A stretch of DNA of 32,949 nucleotides from Pirellulales bacterium (lineage in GTDB: Bacteria; Planctomycetota; Planctomycetia; Pirellulales; JADZDJ01), in NCBI GenBank assembly GCA_035499655.1, contig DATJYL010000007.1, positions 1 through 32,949 of the forward strand, given 5' to 3'. Numbering within the stretch: the stretch's first letter is position 1; each line of letters begins with the position of its first letter. Below, one piece after another: positions 5,566 to 30,773 of the stretch. Both the position numbers and the translations under genes were made by a program. The notes under the pieces are model-generated. The model had not been told where the DNA came from, made no database searches, and saw only the letters and a list, made by a program, of their open reading frames with translations.

Positions 5566-5655
5566 AACGCGGCGCGCGGCGGCTAAAAACAAATCAAGAT
5601 GCTTCATCGATCCGACCACGTCCAACGGTCCCCGCGAACTTCGGCTGTGGGACTC

Positions 5656-6792
5656 TTACGAACCGGGCGGACTTTGGCTGATTTCCAATTCCGTGGTCCC
5701 TTTTTTAAAGTGCGGAACACCGGCGGCATACTCCACAAGCGACTTTTCGCGCATTTGTTTGGTCACTGCGGCGAGTAGATATTCCGACAGGGCCGGTTGC
5801 AGTTGGTCGCGCACCTCTTGCCAGGTTTTTGTGCCGGGCTTGACATCGGTTACTTTGATTAAGTGCACGCCAAAATTGGTGACGACCGGCGTGCTAATTT
5901 CGCCGGGCTTAATGGAAAAGGCGGCCTGCGAGAAAGACCCCGCCATCACGCCTTTGAGCGGAATAAAGCCCAAATCGCCTCCGCGGCTGCGGCTGGGTCC
6001 GGCCGAATATTTTTGAGCCGCGTCTTCAAAGGTAAGTTTACCGGCTTCGATATCATCGCGCAACTTCTGGGCTTGCTCCACCAGGGCTTTGGTAACCTCG
6101 GAATCGACGGCGCCTTCCGGTCGCAGCAGAATGTGACTGACGCGACGCTGCGTGCCATCGAACTGTTCGTGGAAACGATCGAACAACGTTTGCAACGATT
6201 TATCGGTGGTTTGTTGGTCGACGAATTTTCGCCAGCCCAATTCATATTCCATGGTTGCGTGCAGCGAGGCCTCGGTCTGATGGGTGCGCGCCAAAAAATC
6301 TTCCAGGTTGGAATTCTGCTGTTGCAGGGCCGTGCGCAAGCGTTCGACGGTGGCGGTTATCTCATCGACGCTGGGGGTCATTTTTTCCGCTGTTAGGAAT
6401 TGCTGAACGAGGGTGTGATCGATCAACTTCTGGAGCATGGTGGCTTCCACCGTGGGAAGCATGTCGGCGCCGATTTTTTGATTGTGCGCGACCTCGTCCA
6501 TCGCGCGCTCCACTTGGTTCTGAAAAATCGGCACACCGTTCACCCGTGCGATGACGGCTTGGGCCGCATCCTGCCCCGACGGCGACGGCAGCGGTTGGGG
6601 TTCAAGACTGGACATATCCGGGGGCGGAGGGCCTTCCAGCCCTTGCGCCAGAAGGCAGGCCGCGGTGAGAAATATCGCTCCCATGATCGTCACGACTTGG
6701 ATAAAACCAGCGGTGGAGATTGGAAAGCGATCAGTAGCCTGGGAAATGCCGACAACGGTTTGTTGGCTTCGATTCATGCTTGAAATAATCAT
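5656..6792 (-). CDS. Membrane-anchored or secreted parvulin-type peptidyl-prolyl isomerase
   Basis: The 378-residue protein resembles SurA/PrsA-type folding factors acting outside the cytoplasm. A hydrophobic segment at residues 29-50 (IQVVTIMGAIFLTAACLLAQ) serves as signal or anchor. A Pro-rich stretch follows, then a SurA-N-like helical region (VIARVNGVPIFQNQVERAMDEV through about residue 190). The parvulin domain covers about 217-315, with RRVSHILLR, a basic/Ser loop, RGGDLGFIPLKGVM, FSIKPGEISTPVVTNFGVHLIKV. The C-terminal helical tail resembles the EYLLAAVTKQMREK region of the family. An internal ATG six residues in (6777) is an equally good start. It is a single gene, divergent from the DUF1570 gene. 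Confidence 0.88.
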   Translation of the reverse strand: MIISSMNRSQQTVVGISQATDRFPISTAGFIQVVTIMGAIFLTAACLLAQGLEGPPPPDMSSLEPQPLPSPSGQDAAQAVIARVNGVPIFQNQVERAMDEVAHNQKIGADMLPTVEATMLQKLIDHTLVQQFLTAEKMTPSVDEITATVERLRTALQQQNSNLEDFLARTHQTEASLHATMEYELGWRKFVDQQTTDKSLQTLFDRFHEQFDGTQRRVSHILLRPEGAVDSEVTKALVEQAQKLRDDIEAGKLTFEDAAQKYSAGPSRSRGGDLGFIPLKGVMAGSFSQAAFSIKPGEISTPVVTNFGVHLIKVTDVKPGTKTWQEVRDQLQPALSEYLLAAVTKQMREKSLVEYAAGVPHFKKGTTELEISQSPPGS

Positions 6793-7029
6793 ACGTTTCA
6801 GGCTTCGTACCCTAATTTTTCAATCTTTTCTACCTTCAACGCGATAGATGCTGGCTGGAGGGTTCTCCACGCAACAAACGAGCAACCCACAGAACATAAC
6901 TTCATTTTAGACGCGCCCAGCCAGAGGTTCTAGCGCGCGGCCGTTCTAAGAGGAATTTACATTCTAAACTTGTATAGCCAAGGCCCGCGATGATGGGCCA
7001 TACCACCCGGGTCTATCCAGGACAATGGC

Positions 7030-8124
7030 ATGAATTATCGACTATTTTCCTTGCGGGCACTGGCGTCGTGTGTGGCCTGGGGATGGGCCGCTTTCATCTT
7101 TGCCGGTTCGTCACCCACGCCGATTACCATGGACGCCGTCGTCCACGGCCAACGTGTGGAAGGCATGCCGTTAACCTGGTCGAATACGAAAATGTATTTG
7201 CTGGGACGCGACGGGGCGATGACCGAATTCGCTCCCGGCGACGCTCAAGATTATCACAAAACCAGCGATGGCTTCAGCCCGTATCCACAAAACATGCTCC
7301 GCGGAATGCTCCAGCGCGAGTTTGGCCCGCAATACGAAGTCAGCGGCACAGGACATTTTTTGGTGGTGCATCCGAAGGGGCAAACGCAGTGGGCCGATCG
7401 ATTTGAACAAATGTATCGCTCCTGCGAAATGTATTTTGCGGTCCGCGGTTTCACGTTAAGCGATCCACAGTTTCCCCTCGTGGCCATCGTGTTTGCCACA
7501 CAGGACGATTTCCGACATTATGCGGCCAAAGATACGCTGCCCGCCGGCGCCGGCTTGTTGGGCTACTATTCGCCGTATACCAATCGGGTGGCGCTATTCG
7601 ACATTGGCGATGGCCGCACGTCCAACGCGCAATGGCAACAAAATTACGCCACGGTATTCCACGAAGCATCGCATCAAACGGCGTTCAATACGGGCATTCA
7701 CAACCGATGGTCGCCGCCTCCCCGGTGGGTGGCAGAAGGTTTGGGCACCATGTTCGAAGCGCGGGGCGTGGCTGATTCGCGCACATATCCCAGTCAGGCG
7801 GATCGCATCAACCGGGGCCGCTTGAACGACTTCAAATCACAACTGGCCAAACACACGCCCCAAACGTTGGCCGAAATGATCAGCTCTGATCGACAGTTCG
7901 AAAGCGATCCCATGAACGCCTATGCCCAAGCCTGGGCATTTACGTTTTTTCTCGTGGAAGAAATGCCGCGCGAATACGCCCGATATCTGCAAAAAACGGG
8001 CTCTCGGCCGGCATTCACTGCGTATCCTGCGGCCCAACGGCTAAAAGATTTCACCGATGTTTTCGGCGAAAACCTGGCCCTGCTCGACGCCCATTTCTTG
8101 CGGTTCATGAACGAGTTGAAGTAG
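7030..8124 (+). CDS. DUF1570 family protein, putative zinc metallopeptidase
   Basis: The 364-residue protein starts with a short basic stretch and a hydrophobic segment (about 8-26), so it is probably secreted. The core holds HEASH at residues 211-215, a HExxH zinc motif. It is followed by WVAEGLGTMFE with Glu236, a plausible third ligand or conserved glutamate of a gluzincin-like fold. The aromatic-rich phrases LLGYYSPYTNRVALFDIGDG and AYAQAWAFTFFLVEEMP are typical of DUF1570 proteins, abundant in planctomycetes, whose substrates are unknown. The length fits the family. The upstream gap (6793-7029) is AT-richer and probably holds divergent promoters for this gene and the isomerase gene. Confidence 0.82.
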   Translation: MNYRLFSLRALASCVAWGWAAFIFAGSSPTPITMDAVVHGQRVEGMPLTWSNTKMYLLGRDGAMTEFAPGDAQDYHKTSDGFSPYPQNMLRGMLQREFGPQYEVSGTGHFLVVHPKGQTQWADRFEQMYRSCEMYFAVRGFTLSDPQFPLVAIVFATQDDFRHYAAKDTLPAGAGLLGYYSPYTNRVALFDIGDGRTSNAQWQQNYATVFHEASHQTAFNTGIHNRWSPPPRWVAEGLGTMFEARGVADSRTYPSQADRINRGRLNDFKSQLAKHTPQTLAEMISSDRQFESDPMNAYAQAWAFTFFLVEEMPREYARYLQKTGSRPAFTAYPAAQRLKDFTDVFGENLALLDAHFLRFMNELK

Positions 8125-8332
8125 GAAATCAAAGGCGCGTCGGGGGCAACAAGCATGCAGGGCGAGGCGATCTGAAGATGTGGTCGGCGGCAAGTTGCGG
8201 CGCCGCCCCTGTCACACGGCAGCCAATTCGATTACAGTCTGTGAATCGCGGCGTGTGGGCCAAATTGGTCTTTTCAGGCACGTCGTGCGGCTGGTTCTGG
8301 CCTCACCTCACATCACAACATTAGAAAAATAG

Positions 8333-8695
<363 letters not shown>

Positions 8696-10892: not shown

Positions 10893-11972
10893 CTAATAAT
10901 CAACGCCCGTAATTTCCAAACCGTCGGCCCGAGCAATCAACCGGGCCAGTTGACGAATGTCGATCTTGTCGCTGAGGAAATGCACCGATCCGTCCCCCAG
11001 CAAAATGTGCGCGCCGTTGACGTGAAAGGAATAAATCTCCGACGTTCCCTCTGAGAAATACGGCGCCACGTTGTACGTCGGATAATTCTCGCCATTAGTG
11101 CAATTCAACGGGCAGGGTCCGTTTAATTGCGAACCATCGTACAAAGATCCGTGCAAGGTCACGTCGGTGGCTGCTCGCGCCCAGCCGCCGCCATTTTGAT
11201 GAACCGTCATCACGTCGCCCGGGACCTGTACGCCGTTACGCCAAATATTAGGCCGGCCCGCAGATTCGGCATACATAATGGTATGCGACAAGCCATCCAA
11301 AGCGTCTTTCAGCCTGCACGTAGCGTTCTTCCGCATCAAACCGCTGTTGGCGCTTTTGTTGGTTGCATCCCAGCTGATGGTCGATTCATCAACAAGATTT
11401 TGAGCCGGCCGACCGGACGGCGAGGTCACGGTCGTGCCATCGCCCAAATCGGGATGCACCCCAACCACGGGACTATAATCGGTAACAGCTACTTCCGGTG
11501 TCCACACCGTGTGGCCAGAAGCGTCGGGCACTTGCGGATCGCCGTCGAGCCGATTCGGATCGAGCGGATCGGATGGGCACAACAGCGCCGGAATCGGCGT
11601 TTTGGTGACCACTAAATTCGCTCCGCCGGCCCCGCTGATGGCATCCCAGTTAATCGTGAAATCGTATTGCTGATAAAGCTGCGATTCTTCCAAAAACGGC
11701 AAAATCAACGTGAACCCGGAAATGCGCGGGGCGGTGGTCGAACCGCCGGGGCGTGTGCTGTCGGGTAATGTTTTTTTGGCGCTTTCGTAATTCAGCACCG
11801 CCAAGCCCAACTGCTTTTCGACATTGGCGCATTGGGTTCGCCGGGCGGCTTCGCGCGCCGCTTGCACCGCCGGCAGCAGCAACGCAATCAAAATGCCAAT
11901 GATGGCGATCACGACCAATAATTCGACGAGTGTAAAACCGGCGCGATTTCGAATGGAATAAAACTTTTTCAC
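10893..11972 (-). CDS. DUF1559 prepilin-like protein (H-x9-DG type)
   Basis: The 359-residue protein begins with a type IV prepilin-like leader: basic residues, then GFTLVELLVVIAIIGILIAL and the planctomycete-typical LLPAVQAAREAARRTQC. The leader would be cut by a prepilin peptidase and the N-terminus methylated. The C-terminus has HVNGAHILLGDG, the H-x9-DG signature of the family (His317). Such proteins occur in very high copy in planctomycetes; their structural role is poorly known, with pseudopilin or surface functions proposed. The start is GTG, with GGAG 8 nt upstream. The lipoprotein gene lies 90 bp upstream on the same strand, a frequent pairing in these bacteria, and probably shares its transcript. 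Confidence 0.94.
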   Translation of the reverse strand: MKKFYSIRNRAGFTLVELLVVIAIIGILIALLLPAVQAAREAARRTQCANVEKQLGLAVLNYESAKKTLPDSTRPGGSTTAPRISGFTLILPFLEESQLYQQYDFTINWDAISGAGGANLVVTKTPIPALLCPSDPLDPNRLDGDPQVPDASGHTVWTPEVAVTDYSPVVGVHPDLGDGTTVTSPSGRPAQNLVDESTISWDATNKSANSGLMRKNATCRLKDALDGLSHTIMYAESAGRPNIWRNGVQVPGDVMTVHQNGGGWARAATDVTLHGSLYDGSQLNGPCPLNCTNGENYPTYNVAPYFSEGTSEIYSFHVNGAHILLGDGSVHFLSDKIDIRQLARLIARADGLEITGVDY

Positions 11973-12062
11973 GACTGGGTCTCCGTTTCAGAAAGTCGTT
12001 GCGAAAATAAGGGAACTGCTTTCTCTCGCGGCGAAAGAAGGTGGACGGGAAACACAATAAAT

Positions 12063-12554
12063 TCACTTCAACACAATGGGCGTTAACTCGTTCTTGCCGG
12101 CCACGATGGTCACTTTCACCGGCGAAGTGCCCGGCTTGCTATATTGCGGCGGCAATAAATTGGGACTGAGCACGGGATCGCCGTCGGGGCCTTTAATCGT
12201 TTTGTGCCACTCAACGGTGAGCACATAATCGCCTTCCGGCGCGCCATCATTGGAGTTGTAACTGCTTAACTCAAACGTGCCGTCCGGTTGCACCTGAGCA
12301 CGAGGCACCACCACTTGGCCGTTGGGTGCTTTCAAGTCTGACTTGGAATGCAGCGCCACGTACGCTCCCTGCGGCGCCGCCCCTTTGAAGCTGACTTTTC
12401 CCACGACCGGATACGCCGTCAGCAAATCTTGTGGCCCGCTGGAACCACAGCCTGCGGTAGACAACACACAAATGGCCGTTAGTAGCCACGTGGCTTTGTG
12501 CCTTACTGTGAACGAACGGAATGAAAAACCCTGCCCCTGCAACTGGCCACACAT
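12063..12554 (-). CDS. Lipoprotein with transthyretin-like / carboxypeptidase-regulatory-like fold
   Basis: The 163-residue protein has a basic N-terminus, a hydrophobic stretch (TWLLTAICV) and the lipobox LSTAGC, so Cys36 would be lipidated. The rest reads as a beta-sandwich: YPVVGKVSFKGAAPQGAYVALHS, VQPDGTFELSSYNSNDGAPEGDYVLTVEW, then a C-terminal strand after KVTIVAGKNELTPIVLK. The 'GkVxfkG.P..ga.V.l' and 'DGtF.l.....dGap.GdY.vtv' phrases are typical of short planctomycete lipoproteins encoded beside DUF1559 genes. AGGGAG 8 nt before ATG supports the start. No enzymatic role is suggested. Confidence 0.85.
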   Translation of the reverse strand: MCGQLQGQGFSFRSFTVRHKATWLLTAICVLSTAGCGSSGPQDLLTAYPVVGKVSFKGAAPQGAYVALHSKSDLKAPNGQVVVPRAQVQPDGTFELSSYNSNDGAPEGDYVLTVEWHKTIKGPDGDPVLSPNLLPPQYSKPGTSPVKVTIVAGKNELTPIVLK

Positions 12555-12963
12555 TATTTAGCTCCCTGATTAAGTTAGTAATCTTTGAAATACATCGAAA
12601 ATATCCACTGCAGCGAACTACGAACCGAACACGCCCACAGCGCGACCCTTCGAACGGTTGCTCAAGAACCAACCTGCCCATGCTGGCCAATTTCCGGCCG
12701 GCACCGTTGGTTAAAACAGAATGGCGTCAACAACATGTAAGAGTCATGGCTAGCCGCACGTTTCCTTGTGCCTTTTGAAACGCACCTCTGGCTGGTCCAG
12801 TCAGCGACGCCGATGAATGTTCAACCAGCCTCTCACGCGCGTGAGTCGGCCTTCGAATAAACTGCTCAAATTCAATTGGGCCAGCGATTAAACGCTGCCC
12901 TGAAATGTTCTGGTTTTTTTCGTTCGATAATTAATGCAAACTCCGTGCCAACAAATTTGCAAT
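12555..12963. other. Intergenic region with small palindromes
   Basis: No convincing gene is present. CTCACGCGCGTGAG at 12832-12845 is a perfect 14-bp palindrome. GGGCCAGCG (12878-12886) and CGCTGCCC (12893-12900) form a stem with a one-base bulge and a short loop, 64 bp beyond the end of the YezD-like gene. On the plus strand it is followed at distance by TTTTTTT (12914-12920), on the minus strand by an A/T-rich stretch. It may end the sulfate operon transcript, but weakly. The promoter of the lipoprotein gene should lie near 12560-12620. Confidence 0.45.
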
Positions 12964-13155
12964 TCAACGTAGTCTCCGTTTTTCGGTTCGTTCGATCTGC
13001 ACCACCACGCCATCTTGCACCACGATCGATACGACACCAAATCGCAACCCCCGCAGCGCTTCTCGAATTTGCTCCATCGCCAATTCCATGGCATTAACAT
13101 GATTCGTCGTGGACGCGGAATTTAATTCGCCGTGCGGCGGGGTTGAGTTCGACAT
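12964..13155 (-). CDS. YezD-like small protein (DUF2292)
   Basis: The product has 63 residues. Its C-terminal half, MEQIREALRGLRFGVVSIVVQDG and VVVQIERTEKRRL, matches the pattern of the small YezD/DUF2292 family (I.e.LrglryGsVtivVqdGrVvqIErtEK). The biochemical function is not known; I recall that relatives often sit next to sulfate-uptake or sulfur-assimilation genes. ATG 13155 with AAAGGA 9 nt upstream is preferred over the ATG at 13176. It lies 67 bp after cysA on the same strand and is probably the last gene of the sulfate operon. Confidence 0.78.
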   Translation of the reverse strand: MSNSTPPHGELNSASTTNHVNAMELAMEQIREALRGLRFGVVSIVVQDGVVVQIERTEKRRLR

Positions 13156-13222
13156 AATTAGTAATCCTTTACGCACGGCCTGATTCCACTGGTTTACGTG
13201 CAGTTCTTGGAAAACGAATTGC

Positions 13223-14281
13223 TCAAATCACATAATCGGGCATAAACACGCGGACTTTCTTGGGCAAGACAAACACGGTGTCACCCGGCTTAAAATTTAA
13301 TTCGGCGTACCGATCCAGGCTCAAATCCACTTGAATGTCGGATTGCTGCTCGATGGACACTAAGCCAATGCGGGCGACCGAGCCGGTGGGATTTACCCGC
13401 CGCACTTGGGCCGCCAAACTAGGCACGCCGTTTTGCTTGAGCGCGATATCCAATTCATGGGGCCGCATGTAAAGCGTGGCGGCCTGTGGTTGGGCGTGCG
13501 GATAGGCGGGGTAATCCCATTTCAAATTGCCGACGACAGCGTGGCCATTTTCCACGCGGCCGTGGAACACGTTCACGTTCCCTAAAAAATCGATCACGAA
13601 CGGATTGGCCGGCTTGTCGAACACTTCCGCCGGCGCGCCCGCTTGTTCGACCCGGCCCTGATTCATGACTACCACGCGATCGGCCACTTCAAACGCCTCT
13701 TCCTGATCGTGCGTCACAAGGATGCTGGTCGTGTGAATTTCGTCGTGCAGCCGCCGCAGCCAGCCACGCAATTCCTGTCGCACTTTGGCATCCAGCGCTC
13801 CAAATGGCTCGTCCAACAACAGAACTTTGGGCTCAATCGCCAGTGCCCGGGCCAAAGCGACTCGCTGCCGCTGGCCGCCGGAAAGTTGCGAAGGATAGCG
13901 ATGTTCCATCTGTTCCAGCCGCACCAGGCCGAGCAATTCGCGGACCTTGTTTTGAATTTCCGTCTTGGACCGCTTTCGCACCCGCAGACCAAACGCCACG
14001 TTTTCAAACACGCTCATGTGACGAAACAACGCGTAATGCTGAAACACGAATCCGACGTTACGCTCGGCTGCCGCGCGATGTGTCACATCTTCGCCGTGGC
14101 AAATTACCGTGCCTCCGTCGGGCGTTTCCAATCCGGCTATCATACGCAGCAACGTCGTTTTGCCCGACCCGGACGGACCCAACAGTGCCACCAACGATCC
14201 GCCGGCAATCTCCAAACTGACGTTATCCACGGCAGAAAAATTGCCAAATTTCTTGGTGATGTTTTGGATCGAAATGCTCAT
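13223..14281 (-). CDS. cysA: Sulfate/thiosulfate ABC transporter, ATP-binding subunit
   Basis: This 352-residue ATPase drives import of sulfate or thiosulfate with CysT and CysW. It shows Walker [10 protein letters not shown] (35-43), the Q-loop QHYALF, signature LSGGQRQR (133-140), Walker B VLLLDEP, the D-loop GALDAKVR and switch His191. A C-terminal TOBE-like domain (residues about 230-350) contains MRPHELDI and ends with VLPKKVRVF. The start at 14281 leaves 25 bp after the cysW stop. An in-frame ATG at 14356 would add 25 atypical residues overlapping cysW. GGGAG lies 11 nt upstream of the chosen start. The family also transports molybdate and similar oxyanions, but the operon points to sulfate. 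Confidence 0.94.
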
Positions 14282-14306
14282 GGTGCGGCGCGCTCCCGTT
14301 TTCGGG

Positions 14307-15230
14307 TCACTGAATGTGAATGTTTTCGGCTGCCTGTTCGCTAATCCCGGTGGCAACGGCGACTGCCGCCAGTTGTCGGCGAGTTTTCCGCTCCAGCCAA
14401 ACTTTTAACCCCAACGTGACCAACGCCAGCAGTGTAAGCAGCGAGGCCAACGCAAAGGCGTCGGCATCGTTGCCTTGCTCCAGCAGTTTTTGCACTTGCA
14501 GCGGCATCGTCGTGGTTTGGTTTTCGATCCGCCCCGACACCACGTACACGGCGCCAAACTCGCCCATCGCTCGGGCGTTGCACAAAATCAGGCCGTACAG
14601 CAGACCCCATTTGATGTTGGGCAGCGTCACACGCCAAAACATTTGCCAACTGCTCGCGCCCAGGCTAATTGCGGCGGTGTCTTCCTCGCTGCCCAGCGCC
14701 TCCATCACAGGAATCAACTCGCGGGCCACAAACGGCAGCGTGACAAACGTGGTCGCCAGCACAATTCCCGGCAATGCAAACACAACGTGAATGTCCATCT
14801 TTTGCAGCCATGGCCCCAAATAGCCCAAGCGGCCAAAAATCAGCATCAACATCAGCCCCACGACCACGGGCGAAATGGAAAACGGCAAATCGATCAGCGT
14901 CGTCAGCACCGTGCGGCCTGCAAAGCGAAATCGTGCGATCAGCCATGCCGCGGCGATGCCAAACAGCGTATTGAACACTACGGCAATGGGCGTGACGATC
15001 AACGTCAGCTTGATGGCGTTAAGCGTCGCGGGGTTGCTAACCAAGCCGGTCCAGTACGCGGCGATTCCATTTTCCAGCGCCGAGTAAAAAATCAGCGCCA
15101 CCGGGCCGACAATCAATACGCCCACGACGTTCAGCGCCAAGCCAATCAACACGCGGCGGGCAACAGCCGATTCGTGCCGTGCGGCAGCGGTAACGTGAGC
15201 GGAAGTAAGCGTGGCGACGGCGTTAGGCAT
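14307..15230 (-). CDS. cysW: Sulfate ABC transporter permease
   Basis: The 307-residue inner-membrane subunit has about six hydrophobic helices. The cytoplasmic EAA loop, [29 protein letters not shown], contacts CysA. The phrase [17 protein letters not shown] is typical of sulfate permeases, and [16 protein letters not shown] fits CysW. The gene starts inside the last codons of cysT (8-bp overlap), which indicates translational coupling. The C-terminus is basic and cytoplasmic. Confidence 0.93.
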
Positions 15231-16083
15231 AATGGCGTCGGCTCCTCCGCTCCAGCACGTTGATCAGGGCCAACATGCCAAACGACATGGCCAGCAACAC
15301 CAAAGCGATTGCCGTCGCCTCGGCATACGAATTTTGTTCCAGCTTCGAAACAATCAGCATCGGCGCAATTTCCGTTTCGCCTTGCTTATTGCTCGAGACG
15401 AACACGACCGAGCCGTATTCACCAATCGCCCGCGCAAAAGATAATGCAAAGCCCGTAATCAGCGCCGGCTTAAGCGTCGGCAAAATCACGCGCCAAAATG
15501 TTTGCCACCGGCTGGCGCCCAGCAGGGTAGCGGCTTCTTCGGCGTCGGCTTCCATGCTCTCCAGCACCGGCTGAACGGCCCGCACGGCAAACGGAAGACC
15601 AATGAATATCAGCACCAATACAATGCCCAGCCGCGAGTAGGTTCCGTGAATTCCCAAGGGCACCAAAAACCGGCCGAACCAACCGTTTTGGACATACAAC
15701 GCCGAATACGCCAAGCCGGCCACGGCCGTGGGCAGCGCCAGCGGCAAATCAACTAGCGAATCGACCACGCGCTTGCCGGGCCACTCGTAGCGCACCAGCA
15801 CCCACGCAATTAGCAAACCCAACAGCGATGTCACCGCGGCGGAAATAAAGCTGGCGCTGAAAGTCAGAAAATAAGCCGACCGGGCCCGCGAAGTCCACAC
15901 GGCGGCCCAAAACGCCGCGGGGCCTAATTGCGTAACTTTCCACAAGCAGGCCGCTAACGGAATCAATAGCATCACGCTCAAGTAAATGAGCGTGATGCCT
16001 AGCGTTAAACGGAATCCCGGTAGCGTGCGATTCACAAAAAATCCCTTGCCTTTTTGCCTGTGGTCATGCATCATTGAATGCAA
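15223..16083 (-). CDS. cysT: Sulfate ABC transporter permease
   Basis: The 286-residue membrane protein is the partner permease of CysW (also called CysU). It has an N-terminal cytoplasmic segment and about six membrane helices. Family phrases are LPLALPTAVAGLAYSALY and the EAA loop EEAATLLGASRWQTFWRVILPTLKPAL, then ARAIGEYGSVVFVSSN, a marker of the CysT group. It begins 8 bp after the sbp stop and overlaps cysW by 8 bp, so the four sulfate genes form a tight operon. Start codons at positions 1, 4 and 5 of the frame are all possible. Confidence 0.93.
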   Translation of the reverse strand: MHSMMHDHRQKGKGFFVNRTLPGFRLTLGITLIYLSVMLLIPLAACLWKVTQLGPAAFWAAVWTSRARSAYFLTFSASFISAAVTSLLGLLIAWVLVRYEWPGKRVVDSLVDLPLALPTAVAGLAYSALYVQNGWFGRFLVPLGIHGTYSRLGIVLVLIFIGLPFAVRAVQPVLESMEADAEEAATLLGASRWQTFWRVILPTLKPALITGFALSFARAIGEYGSVVFVSSNKQGETEIAPMLIVSKLEQNSYAEATAIALVLLAMSFGMLALINVLERRSRRHYA

Positions 16084-16091
16084 ACGCGGTA

Positions 16092-17207
16092 TTATTTCTT
16101 TTCCGAAATTTGATCGAACAGCGCGCCGTCATTGAAGAACTTCTGGTAGGCGTCGTCCCAATCTTTGGCCACTGCGGTAATGCCGAATAATTTGATCGGC
16201 GGGAAACGGTCCGCAAATTTTTGCCGATCCCCTTCGCTATTGGGCCGATAAAAATGCTTGGCGATCATCTGCTGCGCCACCGGCGTGTACAAAAATTCCA
16301 AATAGGCTCGGGCCGCGTCAACCGTGCCGTGTTTCTTCACGTTTTCGTCAACCCAGGCCACCTGCGGCTCGGCCTTGAAGCTAACCGGCGGATAAACAAT
16401 TTCCAGTTCGCCTTTGGAATCTTGCACTTCTTGCTGCCCTTCGTTCTCCCAAGTCAGGTGCACGTCGCCGATGCCTTTTTTCGAAAACGTCATCGTCGCT
16501 GCGCGGGCTGCAACATCGAGCACCGGTACCTGCTGATAAAGTTTGGTAACAAAGTCCTTGGCCTGGTCTTCGGAGCCGCCGCGAGTGACCACCGAACCCC
16601 AGGCTGCCAAAAAGCTGAGTTTGCCGTTGCCCGATGTTTTGGGATGCGGCGTGATGATTTGCACGTCCGGCTTCACCAGGTCAGGCCAATCGTGAATCTG
16701 TTTCGGATTGCCCTTGCGAACGACGAACACAATGGTGCTGTAGTATGGCAACGAATTTTCCGGCAACCGTTTTTCCCAGCCTTCTGCAATTAAGCCGCTG
16801 CGGCGAATCAAGTCGGTATCGGGCCACATGGCCAGCGTCACGACGTCGGCTTCCAGGCCATCGTTCACTGCGCGAGCCTGGCTGGAAGAACCGCCGTGCG
16901 ATTGTTTGATCGTTACCTTGCGGCCGGTATCGCGCTCGTAGATCTTGCCGAACTGCTCATTGATGTCCTGCCACAATTCCCGTGTCGGGTCGCAAGCCAC
17001 GTTCAATAGTTCCACCGGGTCGGTGTTCGCCGCAGGCTTGTCGGCAGCAGCGGCCACTCCAGAAACGGCGCTGCCGCAGTGGATCGCGCCGCTGATCAGT
17101 GCGGCCAGAAAAAGCGAAAACGAAAACACAACAGCAGTAGCGCGGCCGGTGCGTGCCATGGCAGTATTCCAACTAGCTGGGGTTTGAATATCGCGATTTC
17201 GGCCCAT
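16092..17207 (-). CDS. sbp: Periplasmic sulfate-binding protein
   Basis: This is the solute receptor of the sulfate transporter. A hydrophobic signal (about residues 26-47) and an Ala-rich linker precede the mature domain, which begins LLNVACDPTRELWQDIN. Both family signatures are present: KQSHGGSSSQARAVNDGLEA followed by DVVTLAMWPDTD, and PHPKTSGNGKLSFLAAWG. Later phrases VLDVAARAATMTFSKKGIGDVHLTWENE and the C-terminal FPPIKLF match sulfate-binding proteins rather than molybdate ones. An internal ATG at 17159 gives a more compact signal peptide and is a reasonable alternative start. It is the first gene of the operon, divergent from the sigma-54-type regulator, with a shared 221-bp gap. Confidence 0.93.
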   Translation of the reverse strand: MGRNRDIQTPASWNTAMARTGRATAVVFSFSLFLAALISGAIHCGSAVSGVAAAADKPAANTDPVELLNVACDPTRELWQDINEQFGKIYERDTGRKVTIKQSHGGSSSQARAVNDGLEADVVTLAMWPDTDLIRRSGLIAEGWEKRLPENSLPYYSTIVFVVRKGNPKQIHDWPDLVKPDVQIITPHPKTSGNGKLSFLAAWGSVVTRGGSEDQAKDFVTKLYQQVPVLDVAARAATMTFSKKGIGDVHLTWENEGQQEVQDSKGELEIVYPPVSFKAEPQVAWVDENVKKHGTVDAARAYLEFLYTPVAQQMIAKHFYRPNSEGDRQKFADRFPPIKLFGITAVAKDWDDAYQKFFNDGALFDQISEKK

Positions 17208-23939: not shown

Positions 23940-25226
23940 ATGCCCACTGCTTCGCGGTTTTTACCTCTGCGCACTGAAATTGCCGGCCTGTCCGTCAACA
24001 AACTCGCTGAACAGTTTGGCACTCCGACATTTGTGTACGACGCCGCAAAAATTATCGAGCGGATTAACGATTTGCGAGCGTTCGACGTGATTCGCTACGC
24101 CCAAAAAGCATGTTCCAACATCGCCATTTTGCACTTGGTGCGCCGCGAGAAAGTTTTCGTCGACGCCGTCAGTGCCGGCGAAATTCACCGGGCGTTGGCC
24201 GCCGGTTATCCGGCTGCGGCTGCCGATTTACACGCGCCGCCACCCTTGGTTTACACCGCCGATATTTTCGATCGTGAATCGCTGGAACTGGTCGTTAGTA
24301 AAAATATTCACGTCAATTGCGGCTCGCCCGACATGATCGATCAATTGGGCCAGCGTGCACCGGGGCGGCATATTTCGCTTCGGATCAATCCGGGATTCGG
24401 GCATGGCCACAGCCAAAAAACTAACACCGGCGGCGAGCAATCGAAGCACGGCATTTGGCACGCTGACGTGGCCGACTGCCTGCGATGCGCGGATGCACAC
24501 GGACTGGGCGTCACCGGACTGCACATGCACATTGGTTCCGGTACCGATTTAGAGCATTTAAGCCACGTTTGCCAGGCGATGGAAAAAACAGCGCGCGAAG
24601 TGGGCCGCAGCATTACCAACATCAGCGCCGGAGGCGGATTGCCGGTGCCGTATCGGGCCGACCAATCGTATGTTGATGTCGCGGCATATTATCAATTATG
24701 GAACCAGACTCGCAAGAAATTGGAAGACGCGTTTGGCCACAAAATCACGCTGGAAATTGAACCAGGACGGTATTTGGTCGCAGAGTCAGGTTATTTGATC
24801 GCCGAAATTCGCGCCATCAAACGGATGGGCGGCAATACGTTTTATTTGCTCGATGCGGGGTTCAATAATTTGGCGCGGCCGATTTTGTACGGAGCCTATC
24901 ATCCCATGTCGATTGTGCCGCACAGCGGCAGCGGATCCGACCGAGCATTGCACGATGTCGTTGTGGGCGGTCCGCTGTGCGAATCAGGCGATATTTTCAC
25001 GCAAGAAGAAGGGGGCTACGTTTGCACTCGGCAATTGCCACTGGCCGAAGTTGGAGAGAAATTGGTGTTGGAAGTGGCCGGAGCGTATGGCTTTGTCATG
25101 AATTCAAACTACAATGGCAAATACTTGGCCGCCGAAGTCCTCCTGCGTGACGGCAGAGCTGATGTGATACGTGCACGACAGACCTTTGATGATTTGATCC
25201 GCGGTGAAACGATTCCGCAAAATTGA
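23940..25226 (+). CDS. lysA: Diaminopimelate decarboxylase, E. coli-type
   Basis: This PLP enzyme makes lysine from meso-diaminopimelate. The 428-residue protein shows VIRYAQKACSNIAILHLVRR with PLP Lys56, then INPGFGHGHSQKTNTGGE and SKHGIWHAD, HMHIGSGTD, SAGGGLPVPY, EIEPGRYLVAESG and GGPLCESGDIFTQEEGG, then AYGFVMNSNYN. These phrases match, from memory, the E. coli LysA group much better than the more widespread bacterial LysA group with YAVKAN. ATG 23940 gives the expected N-terminus; the frame is open back to 23859. There is no strong ribosome binding site. Its 3' end abuts or overlaps the next gene. Confidence 0.95.
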   Translation: MPTASRFLPLRTEIAGLSVNKLAEQFGTPTFVYDAAKIIERINDLRAFDVIRYAQKACSNIAILHLVRREKVFVDAVSAGEIHRALAAGYPAAAADLHAPPPLVYTADIFDRESLELVVSKNIHVNCGSPDMIDQLGQRAPGRHISLRINPGFGHGHSQKTNTGGEQSKHGIWHADVADCLRCADAHGLGVTGLHMHIGSGTDLEHLSHVCQAMEKTAREVGRSITNISAGGGLPVPYRADQSYVDVAAYYQLWNQTRKKLEDAFGHKITLEIEPGRYLVAESGYLIAEIRAIKRMGGNTFYLLDAGFNNLARPILYGAYHPMSIVPHSGSGSDRALHDVVVGGPLCESGDIFTQEEGGYVCTRQLPLAEVGEKLVLEVAGAYGFVMNSNYNGKYLAAEVLLRDGRADVIRARQTFDDLIRGETIPQN

Positions 25227-25290
25227 TGCGAAATCGTTCCCGGGCCATGCCGTTCTTTTCTGGTTGACTCCTCAATCGTTTGATGCACTT

Positions 25291-27003
25291 ATGGTCGACG
25301 CAAAACCCGCTCGGCGCGGCTCCTTCTTTGCTCAGCCAAAGTACAAGCTGGAGTTGTGGGGACCGCTTGTGCTTTATCTGCTGGTCGCCGCTTGGCAAGC
25401 TCATCGCCTGCCCGACAACCTTAATCCCGACACGATTCCGTTTTTGCGGAACGCGGAATACATTCTCCAGGGCCGCCTGAGTGATTCCGTTTCCGGCTAT
25501 TGGAATCCGCTGTATACCTGGTCTATTGTGCCGCTGGAAAAGCTGGGGGTCGACGCGGTTTATGCAGCCAAAATCGTAGTGATTGCTTGGGGTTTGCTGG
25601 CGGTGTTGGGCTCTTATTGCTTTCTCAGAGGACTCGTCAAAAAGGTGACTTGGACCGGCGCCGCGGCGTTGTTGATCGTGGCGATCGATCTCGGTTTTTT
25701 TGCAGCACGATATCTGCAACCCGATTTGATTTTATCGGCCTGCTTGTTGTTCTACGTGGCCTTGACATTATCGCCCAATCTTCCAAAGCAGCCCTGGCGA
25801 CAAATAGCCGCGGGAGCAGCGGCTGGATTTGCGTACCTGGCAAAATCGTACGCCTTTCCGTTCTTTTTGGCGCACTATACATTGACGGTGCTGCATGACT
25901 ACTTTACGGCCAAATCACCTCGCTGGCCCGCGCAATATATACGCACCTGGCTCGTGGGATTATTGACGTTTGGTGTCCTCGCAGGGCCTTGGATAGGAGT
26001 GCTGACTGAAAAATATGGGCATTTTACCGTCTCGACTTCGGCCGGCATTCAACATGCTCTTGTGGGTCCGCCCGACGTCGATCGCACACATACTTGGGAT
26101 CGCAAGCTATATTCGGTGCCTGAGGGGCGCATATCAATGTGGGAGACGCCAGAGGATACGCCTTACCATTATTGGTCGCCGTTGGAGAGCCGAGCCAACT
26201 TTGTTTACCAAATCAAGTCTTTCTTGGCTGCGGCCTCTAAGCTGATCAAAGAGATCGATATCTTCGATTTATTGTCCATGACTTTGGTGGCGCTGGTCTT
26301 TACTCCGCTGATGCTTTTGCGTCCAGGTTCGGCCGAAAGCCGCAGAAAGGCGGAATGGGTGCTGGGCACAATCGCATGTTACTCAGCTGGGTTTATGCTT
26401 GTGTTTGTTCAATGGCGCTATATCCACAGCTTTCTGTTTCCCATTTGTTGCGTGTTTTGCCTGGCGTTTAGTTTGAGGATGATGTGGCGCATGGCCGCCC
26501 GATCGAACGTCGGCGCTCGTGCCAAAAACGTCATGGTGGCCCTGGCAATTCTATCGTTCTTCGGAGGAACTTGTGCCCGATATGCGCTTGCGCCGCCAGA
26601 ACTTCACGAGGGCAGCCATCAGCAGCGTGATTGGGCCCAACAACTCCGTGAAGCAGGCGCGCAAGGATCGTTAGCTGCCCTGGACACGAATTCTTCCGCA
26701 TATGTTTTGTACACGTGCTACTACCTTAACCTCCCCTTTTCCGGGGCGGTGGACCCGAACGACCTCGCGAAACAAGATGTGCATGTCGTGGAGCGTGCGC
26801 TAAAATTGGTTGGGGTGCGAACCTTACTGGTGCCCGTTGATGAGCAATGGAAGTGGTTTTGCGATCAGACATCGTGGAAGCACTTGACGACGCTCAAAGC
26901 GCCGACAATGTCCATGGAAGTTTACGTCGCCACGGATCATGCGGCTCAGGCAGATCGCTCAGGAAATTTCCACGTCCTTAAGTCCCAAGTCTCGAGTCAA
27001 TGA
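25291..27003 (+). CDS. Multi-pass membrane glycosyltransferase-like protein (GT-C type)
   Basis: The integral membrane protein has 570 residues from ATG 25291, or 599 from a GTG at 25204 overlapping lysA by 23 bp. It has about 9-10 hydrophobic segments. After the first helix comes NPDTIPFLRNAEYILQGRLSDS followed by VSGYWNPLYTW, an extracytoplasmic loop resembling the acidic catalytic loop of GT-C/PMT-like enzymes that use polyprenyl-phosphate sugars. A soluble C-terminal part (about the last 110 residues) follows the last helix. It may transfer or flip-couple a sugar for a cell-surface polymer; donor and acceptor are unknown. It faces the GT2/nucleotidyltransferase operon and overlaps the kinase-HAD gene by 45 bp tail-to-tail. 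Confidence 0.75.
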   Translation: MVDAKPARRGSFFAQPKYKLELWGPLVLYLLVAAWQAHRLPDNLNPDTIPFLRNAEYILQGRLSDSVSGYWNPLYTWSIVPLEKLGVDAVYAAKIVVIAWGLLAVLGSYCFLRGLVKKVTWTGAAALLIVAIDLGFFAARYLQPDLILSACLLFYVALTLSPNLPKQPWRQIAAGAAAGFAYLAKSYAFPFFLAHYTLTVLHDYFTAKSPRWPAQYIRTWLVGLLTFGVLAGPWIGVLTEKYGHFTVSTSAGIQHALVGPPDVDRTHTWDRKLYSVPEGRISMWETPEDTPYHYWSPLESRANFVYQIKSFLAAASKLIKEIDIFDLLSMTLVALVFTPLMLLRPGSAESRRKAEWVLGTIACYSAGFMLVFVQWRYIHSFLFPICCVFCLAFSLRMMWRMAARSNVGARAKNVMVALAILSFFGGTCARYALAPPELHEGSHQQRDWAQQLREAGAQGSLAALDTNSSAYVLYTCYYLNLPFSGAVDPNDLAKQDVHVVERALKLVGVRTLLVPVDEQWKWFCDQTSWKHLTTLKAPTMSMEVYVATDHAAQADRSGNFHVLKSQVSSQ

Positions 27004-28023
27004 ATGAGCAATCGCCCGAATTTCGTTATTCTTGGAGTCATTGATCAAATGCCGGGGTCCAATCGGCAAGTCGCAAATTAGTTGGTCAAATTCGACGCCC
27101 AGGGTCCGCAGTTTGTTTAGCACGCCGCTAATATTCGATTGAGTTCGCGAGGTGGTCAAGATGACCATATAACCTTGGCTACGAAACTTTTTCAATTTTT
27201 CCACGGACCCTTCGATTAATTCCAGGTCGTCGCCCGTGGGCGAAGGAACCGGAACATGCTTGACCAGCGTTCCATCGAGGTCGCAGAAAATCGTGCCTTT
27301 TCGAATCGGCTCCGGTTTGCGCACGTAAATTGGCACAGGAATATGGGTCACGTCGGAAAAATCTGGATAGACGCCTAACTGACCCTCGGAATCGCAAGCC
27401 ACCAACCGATCGGAAAACCGCTCCCGACAGGTACGAAGAAATATATTTTCGCTGTACGTGGTAATCAAAAAACGCGTGGCAATGTCCGGCACGGAGCGCC
27501 GTTTGGAATCTTTACGCAGGGTGCGTTCCAGGCAGACGTGGTCAGGCGTGTTAACAATAATGATGATATCCAGAGTTGGAAGCGTATCCAGATTTCCGAG
27601 AATGCAGTTCTCGTAGAGAATGACGCCGTGTTTCATCGGCGGCAAGGTGACATCCGCGGTTTTGCCTCCTGTCAGCCGGTCGTAAGCGTTAGGAATATGG
27701 ACGGCTTGGCCATTCTTGAAGGCCGTCAAATCTTTGAAAATTGCGCCGAAATCCCACCAATTGAACTGGTTGATGGCGTTCAGATAAGCGTTGATTCCGG
27801 CCAGCCATTTTTCACGCAACAACTCTCGGCGACCTTCCGAATCAAGAATAAAACGCCAATCGCCGGAGTAAGCTGCGTTTTCTACATGGGCCGCAGTTAG
27901 ATCATCGGAAATTTTCTGCACCAATGTGGTTTTGCCCGCTCCGGCTCGTCCGCAAATGCCAACCAGGAGCCGCAAACCTTCTGCTTCTCGAAAGCGGTGA
28001 AGAATGTAATCAGTAATCTGCAT
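26959..28023 (-). CDS. P-loop (uridine-kinase-like) and HAD phosphatase fusion protein
   Basis: The 354-residue protein has two halves. The N-terminal half is a P-loop kinase: Walker A GRAGAGKTT (25-33), then YSGDWRFILDSEGRRELLREKW, FKDLTAFKNG, and IIIIVNTPDHVCLERTLRKDSKRRS, resembling uridine kinase/phosphoribulokinase folds with a lid region. The C-terminal half is a HAD domain: IFCDLDGTLVKH (Asp248 nucleophile, Asp250), motif II ILTTSRT, and the end motif LINDSKNNE. Thus it could phosphorylate one compound and dephosphorylate another. ATG 28023 lies inside the last codons of the upstream nucleotidyltransferase (ATGCAGATTACTGA, 14-bp overlap), which favours it over 28065. It is probably a sugar or alditol activation enzyme for a surface glycan. 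Confidence 0.8.
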   Translation of the reverse strand: MQITDYILHRFREAEGLRLLVGICGRAGAGKTTLVQKISDDLTAAHVENAAYSGDWRFILDSEGRRELLREKWLAGINAYLNAINQFNWWDFGAIFKDLTAFKNGQAVHIPNAYDRLTGGKTADVTLPPMKHGVILYENCILGNLDTLPTLDIIIIVNTPDHVCLERTLRKDSKRRSVPDIATRFLITTYSENIFLRTCRERFSDRLVACDSEGQLGVYPDFSDVTHIPVPIYVRKPEPIRKGTIFCDLDGTLVKHVPVPSPTGDDLELIEGSVEKLKKFRSQGYMVILTTSRTQSNISGVLNKLRTLGVEFDQLICDLPIGPRHLINDSKNNEIRAIAHSLTRDLGLKDVEIS

Positions 28024-28768
28024 CCAAGTACCTTCGTGTTCTGGCCAGCGACTCTTCCGTTCCAAATTCGAACATGCTCGACACAGGCGCCGCTAACGTC
28101 CGGATGACCTTGACGTAGTTGCGAATCACATCTCGTGTATAATCCAGGTCTCCCAAGGTCGACTTGGAGGAGGCTTGGCTATAGGCGATTGCTTTCAACA
28201 ATGTCGTATTGTGGCAAATCGCGGTGCCGGTAAAACCGTTATCCCGAATCGATTCAGGATCTGTATTGGGCACAATATCGGAAACCACCCCTTCTTCGAC
28301 CACCGCCAGCGTGCGATATGTATCCAACACGGCCTCCGCACTTCCTGGTTTACAGATCACAATAGTGTCTGTATCTACCGAAAATTGGTCGGCGAATATG
28401 AAATCACAAAACGTCACAATGGTGGGATGCCTGCAGGATGCGTAGTCCAACGCATACAAAAAAGAGGCTCCCGGTCCGCAAAGCTCGGAAACACTTTCAC
28501 GACTAAAAAACATGGCAGGAGCTGTATATCTTCCCCGGACGTAATTTTCCAACAAATCGGCGCAGTAACCGGAGGCAATAATCATTCTCTCCGCGACGAA
28601 CTGAAACTTACGAATCGTGTAATCGATCGCTCTGGCCTGACCGACATTCACCAGCGCTTTAGGAATGAAGTCGGTCTCCGGCTGCAAGCGACGGCCCATA
28701 CCTGCGGCCAAGATGATTACGTTGAACTTGATGTTCGTTACACTGAATAAGGGAGCATCCATCAGCAT
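28010..28768 (-). CDS. Nucleotidyltransferase (sugar- or choline-phosphate type)
   Basis: The 252-residue protein has the nucleotidyltransferase start FNVIILAAGMGRRLQPETDFIPKALVNVG, with the G-x-G-x-R loop, Pro30 and catalytic Lys37-like residue. TIVTFCDFIFADQF carries a metal-binding Asp (Asp122). This family joins a phosphorylated sugar, polyol or choline to NTP to make an activated donor. Within the operon it sits between a GT2 and a kinase-HAD protein, so kinase, activation and transfer could be consecutive steps. GGAG 9 nt upstream lies in the end of the GT2 gene, 3 bp away. Several in-frame ATGs near the start make the exact N-terminus uncertain. Confidence 0.83.
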   Translation of the reverse strand: MLMDAPLFSVTNIKFNVIILAAGMGRRLQPETDFIPKALVNVGQARAIDYTIRKFQFVAERMIIASGYCADLLENYVRGRYTAPAMFFSRESVSELCGPGASFLYALDYASCRHPTIVTFCDFIFADQFSVDTDTIVICKPGSAEAVLDTYRTLAVVEEGVVSDIVPNTDPESIRDNGFTGTAICHNTTLLKAIAYSQASSKSTLGDLDYTRDVIRNYVKVIRTLAAPVSSMFEFGTEESLARTRRYLDADY

Positions 28769-28771
28769 AAC

Positions 28772-29491
28772 TTAACTCCGCTTGCGACTTAAAATCCGCT
28801 TGATATTCCAAACATAGAGCCCTGCCATCGTCCGCACAACCGAGCGAATATTCTTCATTTTAAAAATCTTGGTTTCGCCGCCGCCGGGACGTTCGGTATG
28901 AATCGTCGGCACTTGTACATAAGTATTTCCTTCTTTAATGGCTTTAATCAATAATTCGGCCTGAAAACCGAATCCGTCGCTGCTGGCATTCAATTGCCGA
29001 AGCCACGCGGTTTTATGGATCTGTAGCCCATTGAAATACTTGAGTCGCATGCAGAACAATATGTTCATCGTCGTCGTGTAAGCGAACGATATTCCGCGCC
29101 GCGTCCAGCTGCGGGCTGCGGGATTGGCGATATACCCGCAGATCACTTCGGCCTCGCCCACATGCGAGAAGAAATTGCTCAGCGTATCTTTGTCAAATGC
29201 ATTGTCACCATGCACCATTACCGTGTAATCTTTCGTGGCTTGTCGCCGCCCATCGTGATAGCTGGCTCCAAAGCCCCATGGTTTATCATGTGAGAGGACT
29301 CGAATGCGGGGATTCTTGCCAATGTTAGCCTGAATAATTTCTAGCGTCTGGTCCGTGCTTCCGTCGTTAACAATGATGATTTCGTAATCATCAAAATGTT
29401 TCTCGGCCGCATACGTTACAGAATCTATCGAACCTTGAATATTGCCTGCTTCATTCAAAGCCGGAATTACTACACTAAGCGAATGTTCCAT
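28772..29491 (-). CDS. Family 2 glycosyltransferase (DPM1-like)
   Basis: The 239-residue GT-A protein begins HSLSVVIPALNEAGNIQGSID. It shows the nucleotide-binding Asp in IIIVNDGSTDQT (Asp43), and a DxD-like acidic site, VMVHGDNAFDKDTL (Asp96). GFGFQAELLIKAIKEGN and VPTIHTERPGGGETK follow the ED-type and basic regions of polyprenol-phosphate sugar transferases. A hydrophobic C-terminal stretch may touch the membrane. It would move a sugar, perhaps onto a lipid carrier. ATG 29491 with AAAGG 8 nt upstream is preferred over 29518 and 29569. It is the first gene of the minus operon. Confidence 0.87.
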   Translation of the reverse strand: MEHSLSVVIPALNEAGNIQGSIDSVTYAAEKHFDDYEIIIVNDGSTDQTLEIIQANIGKNPRIRVLSHDKPWGFGASYHDGRRQATKDYTVMVHGDNAFDKDTLSNFFSHVGEAEVICGYIANPAARSWTRRGISFAYTTTMNILFCMRLKYFNGLQIHKTAWLRQLNASSDGFGFQAELLIKAIKEGNTYVQVPTIHTERPGGGETKIFKMKNIRSVVRTMAGLYVWNIKRILSRKRS

Positions 29492-30285
29492 CAGGATGCC
29501 TTTGTCTTTGGTCTCCATGTGGAAAGCATTAGGGTTTGGAAAGCCTGATGCCATCGAAAGCCAGAGCAATCCACCGGCGTCTGACGAAGAGTGCGGTCCC
29601 TTCAGAGCTGCCTTTGATTGACTGCGCAGTTACGAATGGATTTAAGCAAGATAAGCTTCGTTCGCCAAGGCGCGCCGTGTTTCGTCCCTATCGCGTCAAC
29701 AGCTTCAAGCAAGCCGCTCGCCACTTCGGCCAATTCCAGCAATCCACCTCTCGATATCCCTTCTAACAAACTCATTATGACACAGGCTCTCACAACTTGC
29801 AAATGACCAACTGTGACGGTTATAGCAGTGTTTATCGAGTAGTTTATTAGGGGCAAACTGAACGCATATCTTTATAGTGATTGTTCGATGAGAAGCCGGT
29901 AATCGCCTGATTAGAGTTTTGATTCCGCTGATCAACAAGACTGAACCGGTGGGCCGTTGTTGCTTCCCGCGGTGCTCATTGTTTTTGTGAACGACTACAT
30001 CCGTCCGAGCCGGTGGTGTTGATTTGCATCGACAGGTTTTTGCGATCTGTCCCTTTCGTGAAAACGATCGATAAAGGGATCTGACCCTTGTTTTTGCTTA
30101 ACGAGCCTGGAGCTCTACTGCGAAGCAAAGAAAGCTAAACGGCAAGGAAATTCACGGACACCTGTGCTGAAATTTACGGTCATTCCGTCCTTGGCTGGAA
30201 CCCGATTTGTATCTATGATTAGGTTGTGAATCCTCAGACAGGTTGTACTCTTCCAGGCAAAATCTAGGCGTTACGGATTACTGCG
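29492..30285. other. 794-bp intergenic region, no established gene
   Basis: A minus-strand frame (29602-29856) could give an 84-residue product ending with MSLLEGISRGGLLELAEVAS and then GLLEAVDAIGTKHGAPWRTK, perhaps a small gene or a remnant; it has no ribosome binding site and I do not call it. The A/T-rich part 29760-29870 could hold promoters for the GT2 operon. A small repeat-like hairpin lies at 30044-30095. The ferredoxin promoter should lie in 30190-30270. Confidence 0.45.
30044..30095. repeat. Small REP-like element with direct and inverted repeats
   Basis: GATCTGTCCCTT (30044-30055) is repeated directly as GATCTGACCCTT (30078-30089). CCCTTT (30051-30056) also pairs with AAAGGG (30073-30078). 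AAGGG-ATCTGA-CCCTT followed by GTTTTTG resembles a terminator. I recall similar 'AAAGGGxTCTGACCC' units as dispersed palindromes in other bacterial genomes. No second copy is in the window. Confidence 0.55.
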
Positions 30286-30681
30286 ATGGCCAAACAAGGA
30301 CCCCGGAAAAAGCTGCCTAAGGAATTGGCCGTCATCAATGCCGACAACTGCACCGGCTGCGAAGCCTGCTTGGAGGTCTGTCCCGTTGATTGCATCGTGA
30401 AGGTGCAGCAATACGACCAGTTTCATAACCTGCAAAGTTTTTGCGAAATCGATTTGGAACGCTGCGTCGGGTGCGAAGTGTGCGTCCACATTCCGGGAAA
30501 AAAATCCAATCCTTACGATTTGAAAGTTTGCCCTTGGGACGCCATCGAAATGGTCCCCACCGAGCAAGTCGCCCAAGTCGTGGCACAAATCGGCGGACCG
30601 CCGCAGTACATTCATGCCAATTGGGATCGCCTGGTGGGCACCGCGCAACACCTGGCGGAATTGAAAGCTGCAGCAGGCTAA
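30286..30681 (+). CDS. 2[4Fe-4S] ferredoxin-type protein
   Basis: The 131-residue electron carrier has a first cluster motif C22-x2-C25-x2-C28-x3-C32-P (CTGCEACLEVCP). The second motif is C60-x2-C63-x2-C66-x15-C82-P, that is, with a 15-residue insertion before the last Cys. Extra cysteines are Cys36 and Cys53. A C-terminal tail of about 45 residues is unusual for a bacterial ferredoxin and may be a docking helix (VAQVVAQIGGPPQYIHANWD and on). The protein lacks signal and membrane segments and is probably cytosolic. Its redox partner is not indicated. The start ATG lacks a clear ribosome binding site but fits the basic N-terminus AKQGPRKKLPKE. Confidence 0.86.
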   Translation: MAKQGPRKKLPKELAVINADNCTGCEACLEVCPVDCIVKVQQYDQFHNLQSFCEIDLERCVGCEVCVHIPGKKSNPYDLKVCPWDAIEMVPTEQVAQVVAQIGGPPQYIHANWDRLVGTAQHLAELKAAAG

Positions 30682-30773
30682 TCGCCTCAATCGCCGCCGC
30701 GAAAAAAACTTTCACTTAGCCCCCGGGCTTGCCCGGCGCTTATTGGCGCTTACCGCACAAGTAACGGGGCGAA

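Follow-up and report, generated by a model that had tools for sequence, protein, structure and literature searches.

This account concerns a group of four genes in a 32,949-nt stretch of the Pirellulales bacterium contig DATJYL010000007.1 (the window; coordinates are in its forward-strand numbering). Three of them, on the minus strand and confirmed as open frames by an open reading frame check of the window, specify a GT2 glycosyltransferase, a nucleotidyltransferase (NTase) and a protein in which a P-loop kinase is joined to a HAD phosphatase. The fourth faces them and specifies a GT-C-like membrane protein (Table 1). The GT2 and NTase genes are separated by 3 bp (28769-28771) and the NTase and kinase-HAD genes overlap by 14 bp (28010-28023), so the operon proposed when the DNA was read without database searches (the sequence-only reading) is borne out by the frames and by Pfam. 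The GT-C-like frame overlaps the 3′ end of the fusion gene, convergently, by 45 bp.

Table 1. Features of the locus, with the grounds for each assignment
Feature	Position	Strand	Basis
Inserted block, 4.97 kb	25208-30178		Not in same-genus genome G392; blastn, tblastn gene order, GC content
GT-C-like integral membrane protein	25291-27003	+	Open frame from 25204, ATG at 25291; hydrophobic segments; relatives match PMT_2/PMT
Kinase-HAD fusion, 354 aa	26959-28023	-	From ATG; Pfam PRK and Hydrolase_3; same fusion in L043
Kinase domain, phosphoribulokinase / uridine-cytidine kinase fold	27322-28023	-	Predicted model, structural matches
HAD phosphatase domain with DxDGT, TxxR and R...ND motifs	26959-27321	-	Motif conservation, predicted model, AfhF fold match
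NTase of sugar-phosphate type, MurU/HddC/LicC-like	28010-28768	-	Pfam, NCBIfam, PDB relatives, identity with L043
GT2 glycosyltransferase, GtrB/DPM1-like	28772-29491	-	Longest frame 28772-29569; ATG at 29491; PF00535, phrog_841

Could such an arrangement be fortuitous? A metagenome-assembled genome from Zixiibacteriota (locus L043) has the same GT2-NTase-fusion operon, with identities of 49% for the GT2, 57% for the NTase and 56% for the fusion (353 residues), and since operon, overlaps and fusion recur in another phylum, the arrangement can be taken as more than chance. Relatives of the kinase are now known from nine loci (the window, L031, L034, L035, L038 and L043-L046), and there is an NTase at all nine, those of L035 and L038 being 93% identical. 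The expectation that the genes are co-conserved therefore holds, and the co-conservation supports the route of phosphorylating, trimming, activating and transferring that the sequence-only reading had envisaged. In unrooted trees of the nine sequences, whether for the kinase, the NTase or both combined, the window and Zixiibacteriota split from the rest with 100% support.

Four of the loci are on phage contigs. For Tetrasphaera phage TJE1 (L031), 82% of the query is covered by tblastn in two pieces; there NTase, HAD and kinase are, in that order, separate, overlapping genes, and the HAD gene (5986-6333, between orf9 and orf10) has no GenBank annotation. Alignment-based scans yielded three further IMG/VR contigs with separate, adjacent NTase, HAD and kinase genes. 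On all four the HAD gene, separate but adjacent, keeps company with a nucleotide-sugar-epimerase-like short-chain dehydrogenase/reductase (SDR), an FkbM-type methyltransferase and a putative transferase. Judged by eye, a frame near the module on one IMG/VR contig resembles a large terminase.

The four bacterial loci from a trimmed kinase alignment scan of genome contigs are the Zixiibacteriota one and three from Alphaproteobacteria (L044-L046), where kinase and NTase flank a large protein, a TIGR04372 glycosyltransferase in L044 and L046, the two scanned. Beyond kinase and NTase there is a NeuB-like gene in L045 and, by eye, in L046. In these two (11324-16491 and 4870-8449, respectively) the kinase/NTase pair adjoins a Gfo/Idh oxidoreductase and a NeuB-cupin protein, and L045 also has a PseF-like cytidylyltransferase; perhaps these are nonulosonic-acid clusters in which the pair supplies a further activated sugar. 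Transposase-like frames seen by eye to either side of the kinase gene of Magnetovibrio (L046 225-821 and 1745-2645) hint at mobility.

The kinase-NTase family is sparse, and a survey of planctomycetes, proposed along with the sequence-only reading, shows that this is not a general planctomycete system: the kinase is in one of 57 relatives, and a match over both fusion domains in one of 392 genomes of the phylum, each time the window's own genome. Weak fusion matches in 42 other planctomycete genomes were set aside, as both domains are covered by just one of the 43 matches listed, that of the window. Strong matches were confined to the source genomes in 132 genomes of the phylum of L043 and 385 of the class of L046, searches in which no more than 21 and 7 candidates per genome, respectively, were scored, so that rare members may be missed; weak matches there (E 3e-8 or worse) were likewise set aside. 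The fusion alone gave no match as a query against viral contigs, nor did a scan of genome contigs with the NTase alignment, and no paper describing a fusion or pathway of this kind was found in the literature.

How did the genes come to be where they are? The corresponding stretch of G392, a genome of the same genus, aligns by blastn with window positions 24501-25207 (79%) and 30179-30682 (81%), with only chance-length pieces between, and because the alignment stops at 25207 and resumes at 30179, the GT-C, fusion, NTase and GT2 genes constitute one block. By tblastn the gene order of G392 (hemA, ccsA, cupin, ferredoxin, lysA) is that of the window; its lysA and ferredoxin genes are ~230 bp apart with none of the four block genes between. 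The block has a GC content of 0.508, and the stretches measured around it have one of 0.549-0.575. Of the three relatives whose lysA regions were compared, G392 alone was informative, the G393 contig ending near lysA and the G421 stretch being without a ferredoxin match. G392 has neither the kinase nor the GT-C protein, the latter being present in two of the 57 relatives, the window's own genome and G121 (30% identity). A repeat search found no direct repeats clearly marking the block ends and no tandem repeat, and a plasmid search gave no match. A defence-system reading was dropped, there being no PADLOC match. Between the GT2 gene and the ferredoxin promoter are 609 bases (29570-30178) without a clear gene and absent from G392; they are single-copy in the genome and have a palindromic-looking short stretch near 30045-30090.

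The sequence-only reading had found the joining of a P-loop kinase to a HAD phosphatase unfamiliar. As an architecture it is known from T4 polynucleotide kinase (T4 PNK) and Pnkp1; the unfamiliar element is a kinase of the phosphoribulokinase (PRK)/uridine-kinase type. The fusion matches PRK (PF00485; 4.4e-8, residues 21-176, 33.6 bits against a cut-off of 22), and in its predicted model (predicted local distance difference test score, pLDDT, 81.8) the kinase domain superimposes on PRK 9qko_A (VIA Z 18.2, 2.4 Å, 175 aligned) and on the uridine-cytidine kinase (UCK) UCK2 1uej_B (Z 17.9, 2.8 Å, 184 aligned). PRK, UCK and PanK are the best matches of the kinase; with the whole fusion model Pnkp1 4xrp comes at Foldseek rank 43, and no PNK-type kinase is among the VIA matches listed for the kinase domain, an absence that excludes nothing. 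Invariant in all nine kinases are K31, D55, D61, R65, K72, N85, W89, W90, E138, R167, R176 and R184, and a further motif, T188-x-Y190-S-E192. The catalytic aspartate would be D55 or D61, on which the HMMER alignment and the predicted strand end disagree. In the HMMER alignment UCK2 residues D84 and Q184 are replaced by N85 and R184, both invariant in the nine, and H117 falls in a gap; these three we take to be nucleoside-pocket residues of uridine-cytidine kinase, and as they are replaced a nucleoside is an unlikely acceptor.

The other half of the fusion matches Hydrolase_3 (5.2e-6, residues 245-306). Among 30 aligned HAD sequences D14, D16, R90 and D95 are invariant, and T57 is present in 29, with S in the other; modelled alone with these sequences the domain reaches pLDDT 94.1. 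Its best fold match is AfhF (PDB 9iqw; Z 11.6, 2.4 Å, 105 aligned, 12% identity), by its PDB name a D-arabinose 1,5-diphosphate phosphatase from phage HY126, followed by 1xpj (Z 10.5), GmhB 3l8h (9.8), Pnkp1 (8.8) and T4 PNK (8.6). When PDB is searched with the sequence profile the best match is Pnkp1 (7.5e-11), then a staphylococcal phosphatase (1.5e-5), 1xpj and GmhB (both ~2e-4) and, further down, T4 PNK. The domain also matches PHROG 1238, which is named phosphoheptose isomerase.

The NTase matches NTP_transf_3 (MobA-like; 1.2e-9) but reaches no NCBIfam cut-off, its best NCBIfam match, MurU, being at 3.8e-9 with 36.3 bits against a cut-off of 370. That a choline-like group might be activated finds little encouragement here: LicC is among its PDB relatives, but so also are HddC, PntC and inositol-1-phosphate cytidylyltransferase. 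The GT2 matches PF00535 (8e-25) and the GtrB-like phrog_841 (4.3e-18). Polyprenyl-phosphate GT2 enzymes of the GtrB type typically have C-terminal membrane helices; that of the window has no hydrophobic segment over the Kyte-Doolittle threshold. Its facing partner had been proposed to act at the final step, and its place in the same inserted block, given the G392 comparison, fits this. Its GT-C label, in turn, is owed only to relatives. In Pfam the window's own protein matches no PMT-type family, but of eight aligned members two match PMT_2, one PMT and one Glyco_transf_22; one of the eight is the membrane protein of L043, for which BLAST shows no relation to that of the window. Since the GT2 resembles GtrB and GT-C relatives resemble PMT, the carrier is likely a polyprenyl-phosphate sugar.

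Gene content, co-conservation, folds, catalytic motifs and the insertion are direct observations; the reactions, the order of the first two, the sugar and the acceptor are what we infer from them. The kinase domain would phosphorylate the anomeric C1 of a distally phosphorylated sugar to give a 1,n-bisphosphate, from which the fused HAD domain would take off the distal phosphate to leave a sugar-1-phosphate, the fusion being in effect a two-step stand-in for a phosphomutase. The NTase would then make the nucleoside diphosphate sugar (NDP-sugar), the GT2 would transfer the sugar to polyprenyl phosphate, and the GT-C protein would pass it on to the final acceptor, probably something at the cell surface. 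That the four genes are a horizontally moving cassette that takes a phosphorylated sugar to an activated one and on to a membrane glycosyltransferase is, taken as a whole, an explanation we hold to be slightly more probable than its failure. With the kinase first and the HAD second, the order fits the best HAD fold match being a D-arabinose 1,5-diphosphate phosphatase, and likewise the succession of HddA and GmhB. The sugar may be guessed to be a pentose or heptose phosphate; PRK itself phosphorylates C1 of a pentose-5-phosphate, which makes a pentose phosphate a reasonable initial guess. A definite assignment to heptose was rejected, as there is no clear GmhA, and in the window nothing matches a GmhA-like profile.

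The same logic of C1 kinase, distal HAD phosphatase and NTase is known from the GDP-D-glycero-D-manno-heptose pathway (GmhA, HddA, GmhB, HddC), where HddA, GmhB and HddC serve C1 phosphorylation, distal dephosphorylation by a HAD enzyme and activation of heptose, according to an excerpt of PMC10680097. The PDB relatives of the window's NTase and HAD include HddC-like proteins and GmhB. HddA, however, is a GHMP kinase, unlike the P-loop PRK-type kinase of the window, and there is no GmhA in the insert and none clear in the genome. For the later steps the comparison is with GtrB/Gtr-type O-antigen modification and ArnC/ArnT, where likewise a GT2, here one resembling GtrB, adjoins a GT-C-like membrane protein. 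Unlike either, the insert has its own NDP-sugar genes; unlike GtrB/Gtr, no GtrA-like flippase gene was noticed in the insert, and the GT2 is without the hydrophobic segment.

Do viruses bring together the same three roles in other ways? From a HAD scan of viral contigs the best 80 of 487 confirmed candidates were taken as loci, and 44 of these have an NTase-profile match in the same ~10-kb locus. In an alignment of 38 NTase-profile proteins (37 from HAD loci and one from L032) the C-terminal halves have invariant HGD...N and D...R, and 28 of the 38 match APH; eight of 45 NTase-profile matches were left out (L127, with a window-type NTase; L161, L099 and L142, copies; L097, minus strand; the second match in L155; L156, short; and L153). 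By their sequence these viral loci cover the three roles too, but with an unrelated, apparently APH-type kinase. Two of them, L101 (4989-9737) and L144 (4917-9711), carry HAD, cupin, NTase-APH kinase, a GmhA-like isomerase (TIGR00441 at 7e-27 and 2e-22, respectively, below cut-off) and then a transketolase split into halves, and the run of these blocks into GmhA-like isomerase and transketolase points to sugar-phosphate chemistry. L166 (4986-8680) has HAD, cupin, GmhA-like and the first transketolase frames, with a middle frame that the NTase profile does not match. All three operons look as if the virus encoded its own way of turning sugar phosphates into an NDP-sugar. In the marine virus AG-345-E15 (L032 2394-8226) an APH-like kinase, an NTase-HAD fusion, SDR, a second HAD, cupin and an NTase-kinase appear to be these parts fused in yet another order.

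In phage RB69 the genes for arabinose-5-phosphate isomerase, NTase, kinase and HAD directly follow one another. Searched against a set of 8 proteins, alignment profile A12 matches RB69 p052 (2.5e-17) and p053 (6e-11), and A9 matches p053 weakly. RB69p051 (L206 7709-8095) is labelled phosphoheptose isomerase, yet its sequence has HAD-like motifs. Excerpts of three reports bear on these genes: p053 and p052 together make up a single protein of 561 residues, and a part in UDP-arabinose synthesis is put forward as speculation (PMC6024577); p051 is listed with the phosphatase domain of polynucleotide kinase (PMC8056088); and, in the work on phage Thanatos, where a UDP-xylose pyrophosphorylase is reported, the function of the RB69 homologue could not be found (PMC12838424). 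The window thus resembles the RB69 UDP-arabinose module, which serves arabinosyl-hydroxymethylcytosine, in that NTase, kinase and HAD are adjacent. In RB69, however, the kinase is APH-like and in one protein with the NTase, unlike the PRK-like kinase fused to HAD and the separate NTase gene of the window, which has GT2 and GT-C rather than a DNA glycosyltransferase. By analogy, the best reading of the cassette would be the logic of RB69/AfhF and of HddA/GmhB/HddC with another kinase family.

Several points weigh against the proposed pathway. PRK-type kinases are known for phosphorylating primary hydroxyls rather than anomeric ones. In the flanks covered, the three alphaproteobacterial loci show no HAD of the window family beside their kinase and NTase, which means that not every such locus has the HAD step. 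The alignment behind the HAD fold prediction was mostly of viral proteins, and AfhF, the best fold match, is not matched by the HAD sequence profile at E 0.1, the nearest by sequence being Pnkp1; nor is RB69p051 matched by the HAD profiles. The own genome (assembly 97% complete) is without a clear GmhA, there being one SIS_2 (PF13580) match at 1.4e-5 in a 408-residue frame, and SIS_2 is in only three of 50 viral records searched. The membrane protein adjoining the L043 operon, as already mentioned, is not BLAST-related to the window GT-C.

What else might the genes do? In one alternative the HAD would act first on a sugar phosphate, the kinase then on C1 of the free sugar, and the NTase last, as in muramic-acid recycling by MupP, AmgK and MurU, which has the same three roles of HAD, sugar kinase (AmgK being APH-like) and NTase. 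There the HAD enzyme MupP dephosphorylates MurNAc 6-phosphate before AmgK and MurU act, by an excerpt of PMC5371407. MurU is also the best NCBIfam match of the window NTase, though far below the cut-off; the invariant basic kinase residues R65, K72 and R184, moreover, would suit a phosphorylated acceptor, and the nearest HAD fold is that of a bisphosphatase, so such a salvage order, different from that of the pathway proposed here, seems unlikely. Alternatively, in keeping with PRK-family action on primary hydroxyls, the kinase might make the phosphate of a polyol or other primary alcohol (glycerol, ribitol or ethanolamine-like) and the NTase a CDP-alcohol, with the HAD as a side or proofreading activity. 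LicC, PntC and inositol-1-phosphate cytidylyltransferase among the NTase relatives would accord with this, but for a transferase the cassette has a GtrB/DPM1-like GT2 rather than one of the LicD, TagF or CDP-alcohol phosphatidyltransferase type, and the phage loci have a nucleotide-sugar epimerase; we regard it as improbable. Nucleic-acid end repair, with a Pnkp-like kinase-phosphatase swapping 3′ for 5′ phosphates, is very improbable: domain order is that of T4 PNK and the HAD profile is, as noted, closest to Pnkp1 with T4 PNK further down, but the kinase domain matches another family, PRK/UCK, and it is accompanied by a sugar NTase and a GT2, with no Rnl- or Hen1-kind ligase or methyltransferase adjoining.

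Rare sugars serve phages and bacteria in protecting DNA and coating cells, and the route by which they are activated is often not known. We know of no member of the PRK/uridine-kinase family in the role of anomeric sugar-phosphate kinase, and suggest, tentatively and with the balance somewhat against it, that it is a third family independently recruited to that role, beside GHMP and APH, here fused to a bisphosphate phosphatase in two phyla and part of a cassette shared by phages and bacteria. If the proposed pathway is right, a new kinase family would join the short list of those able to set up sugar-1-phosphates, and a kinase with R[FW]LITxYSE and an NTase neighbour would be a marker for finding such pathways. 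Phage and bacterial versions of one module would then be linked, and a compact enzyme for making activated sugars would be at hand.

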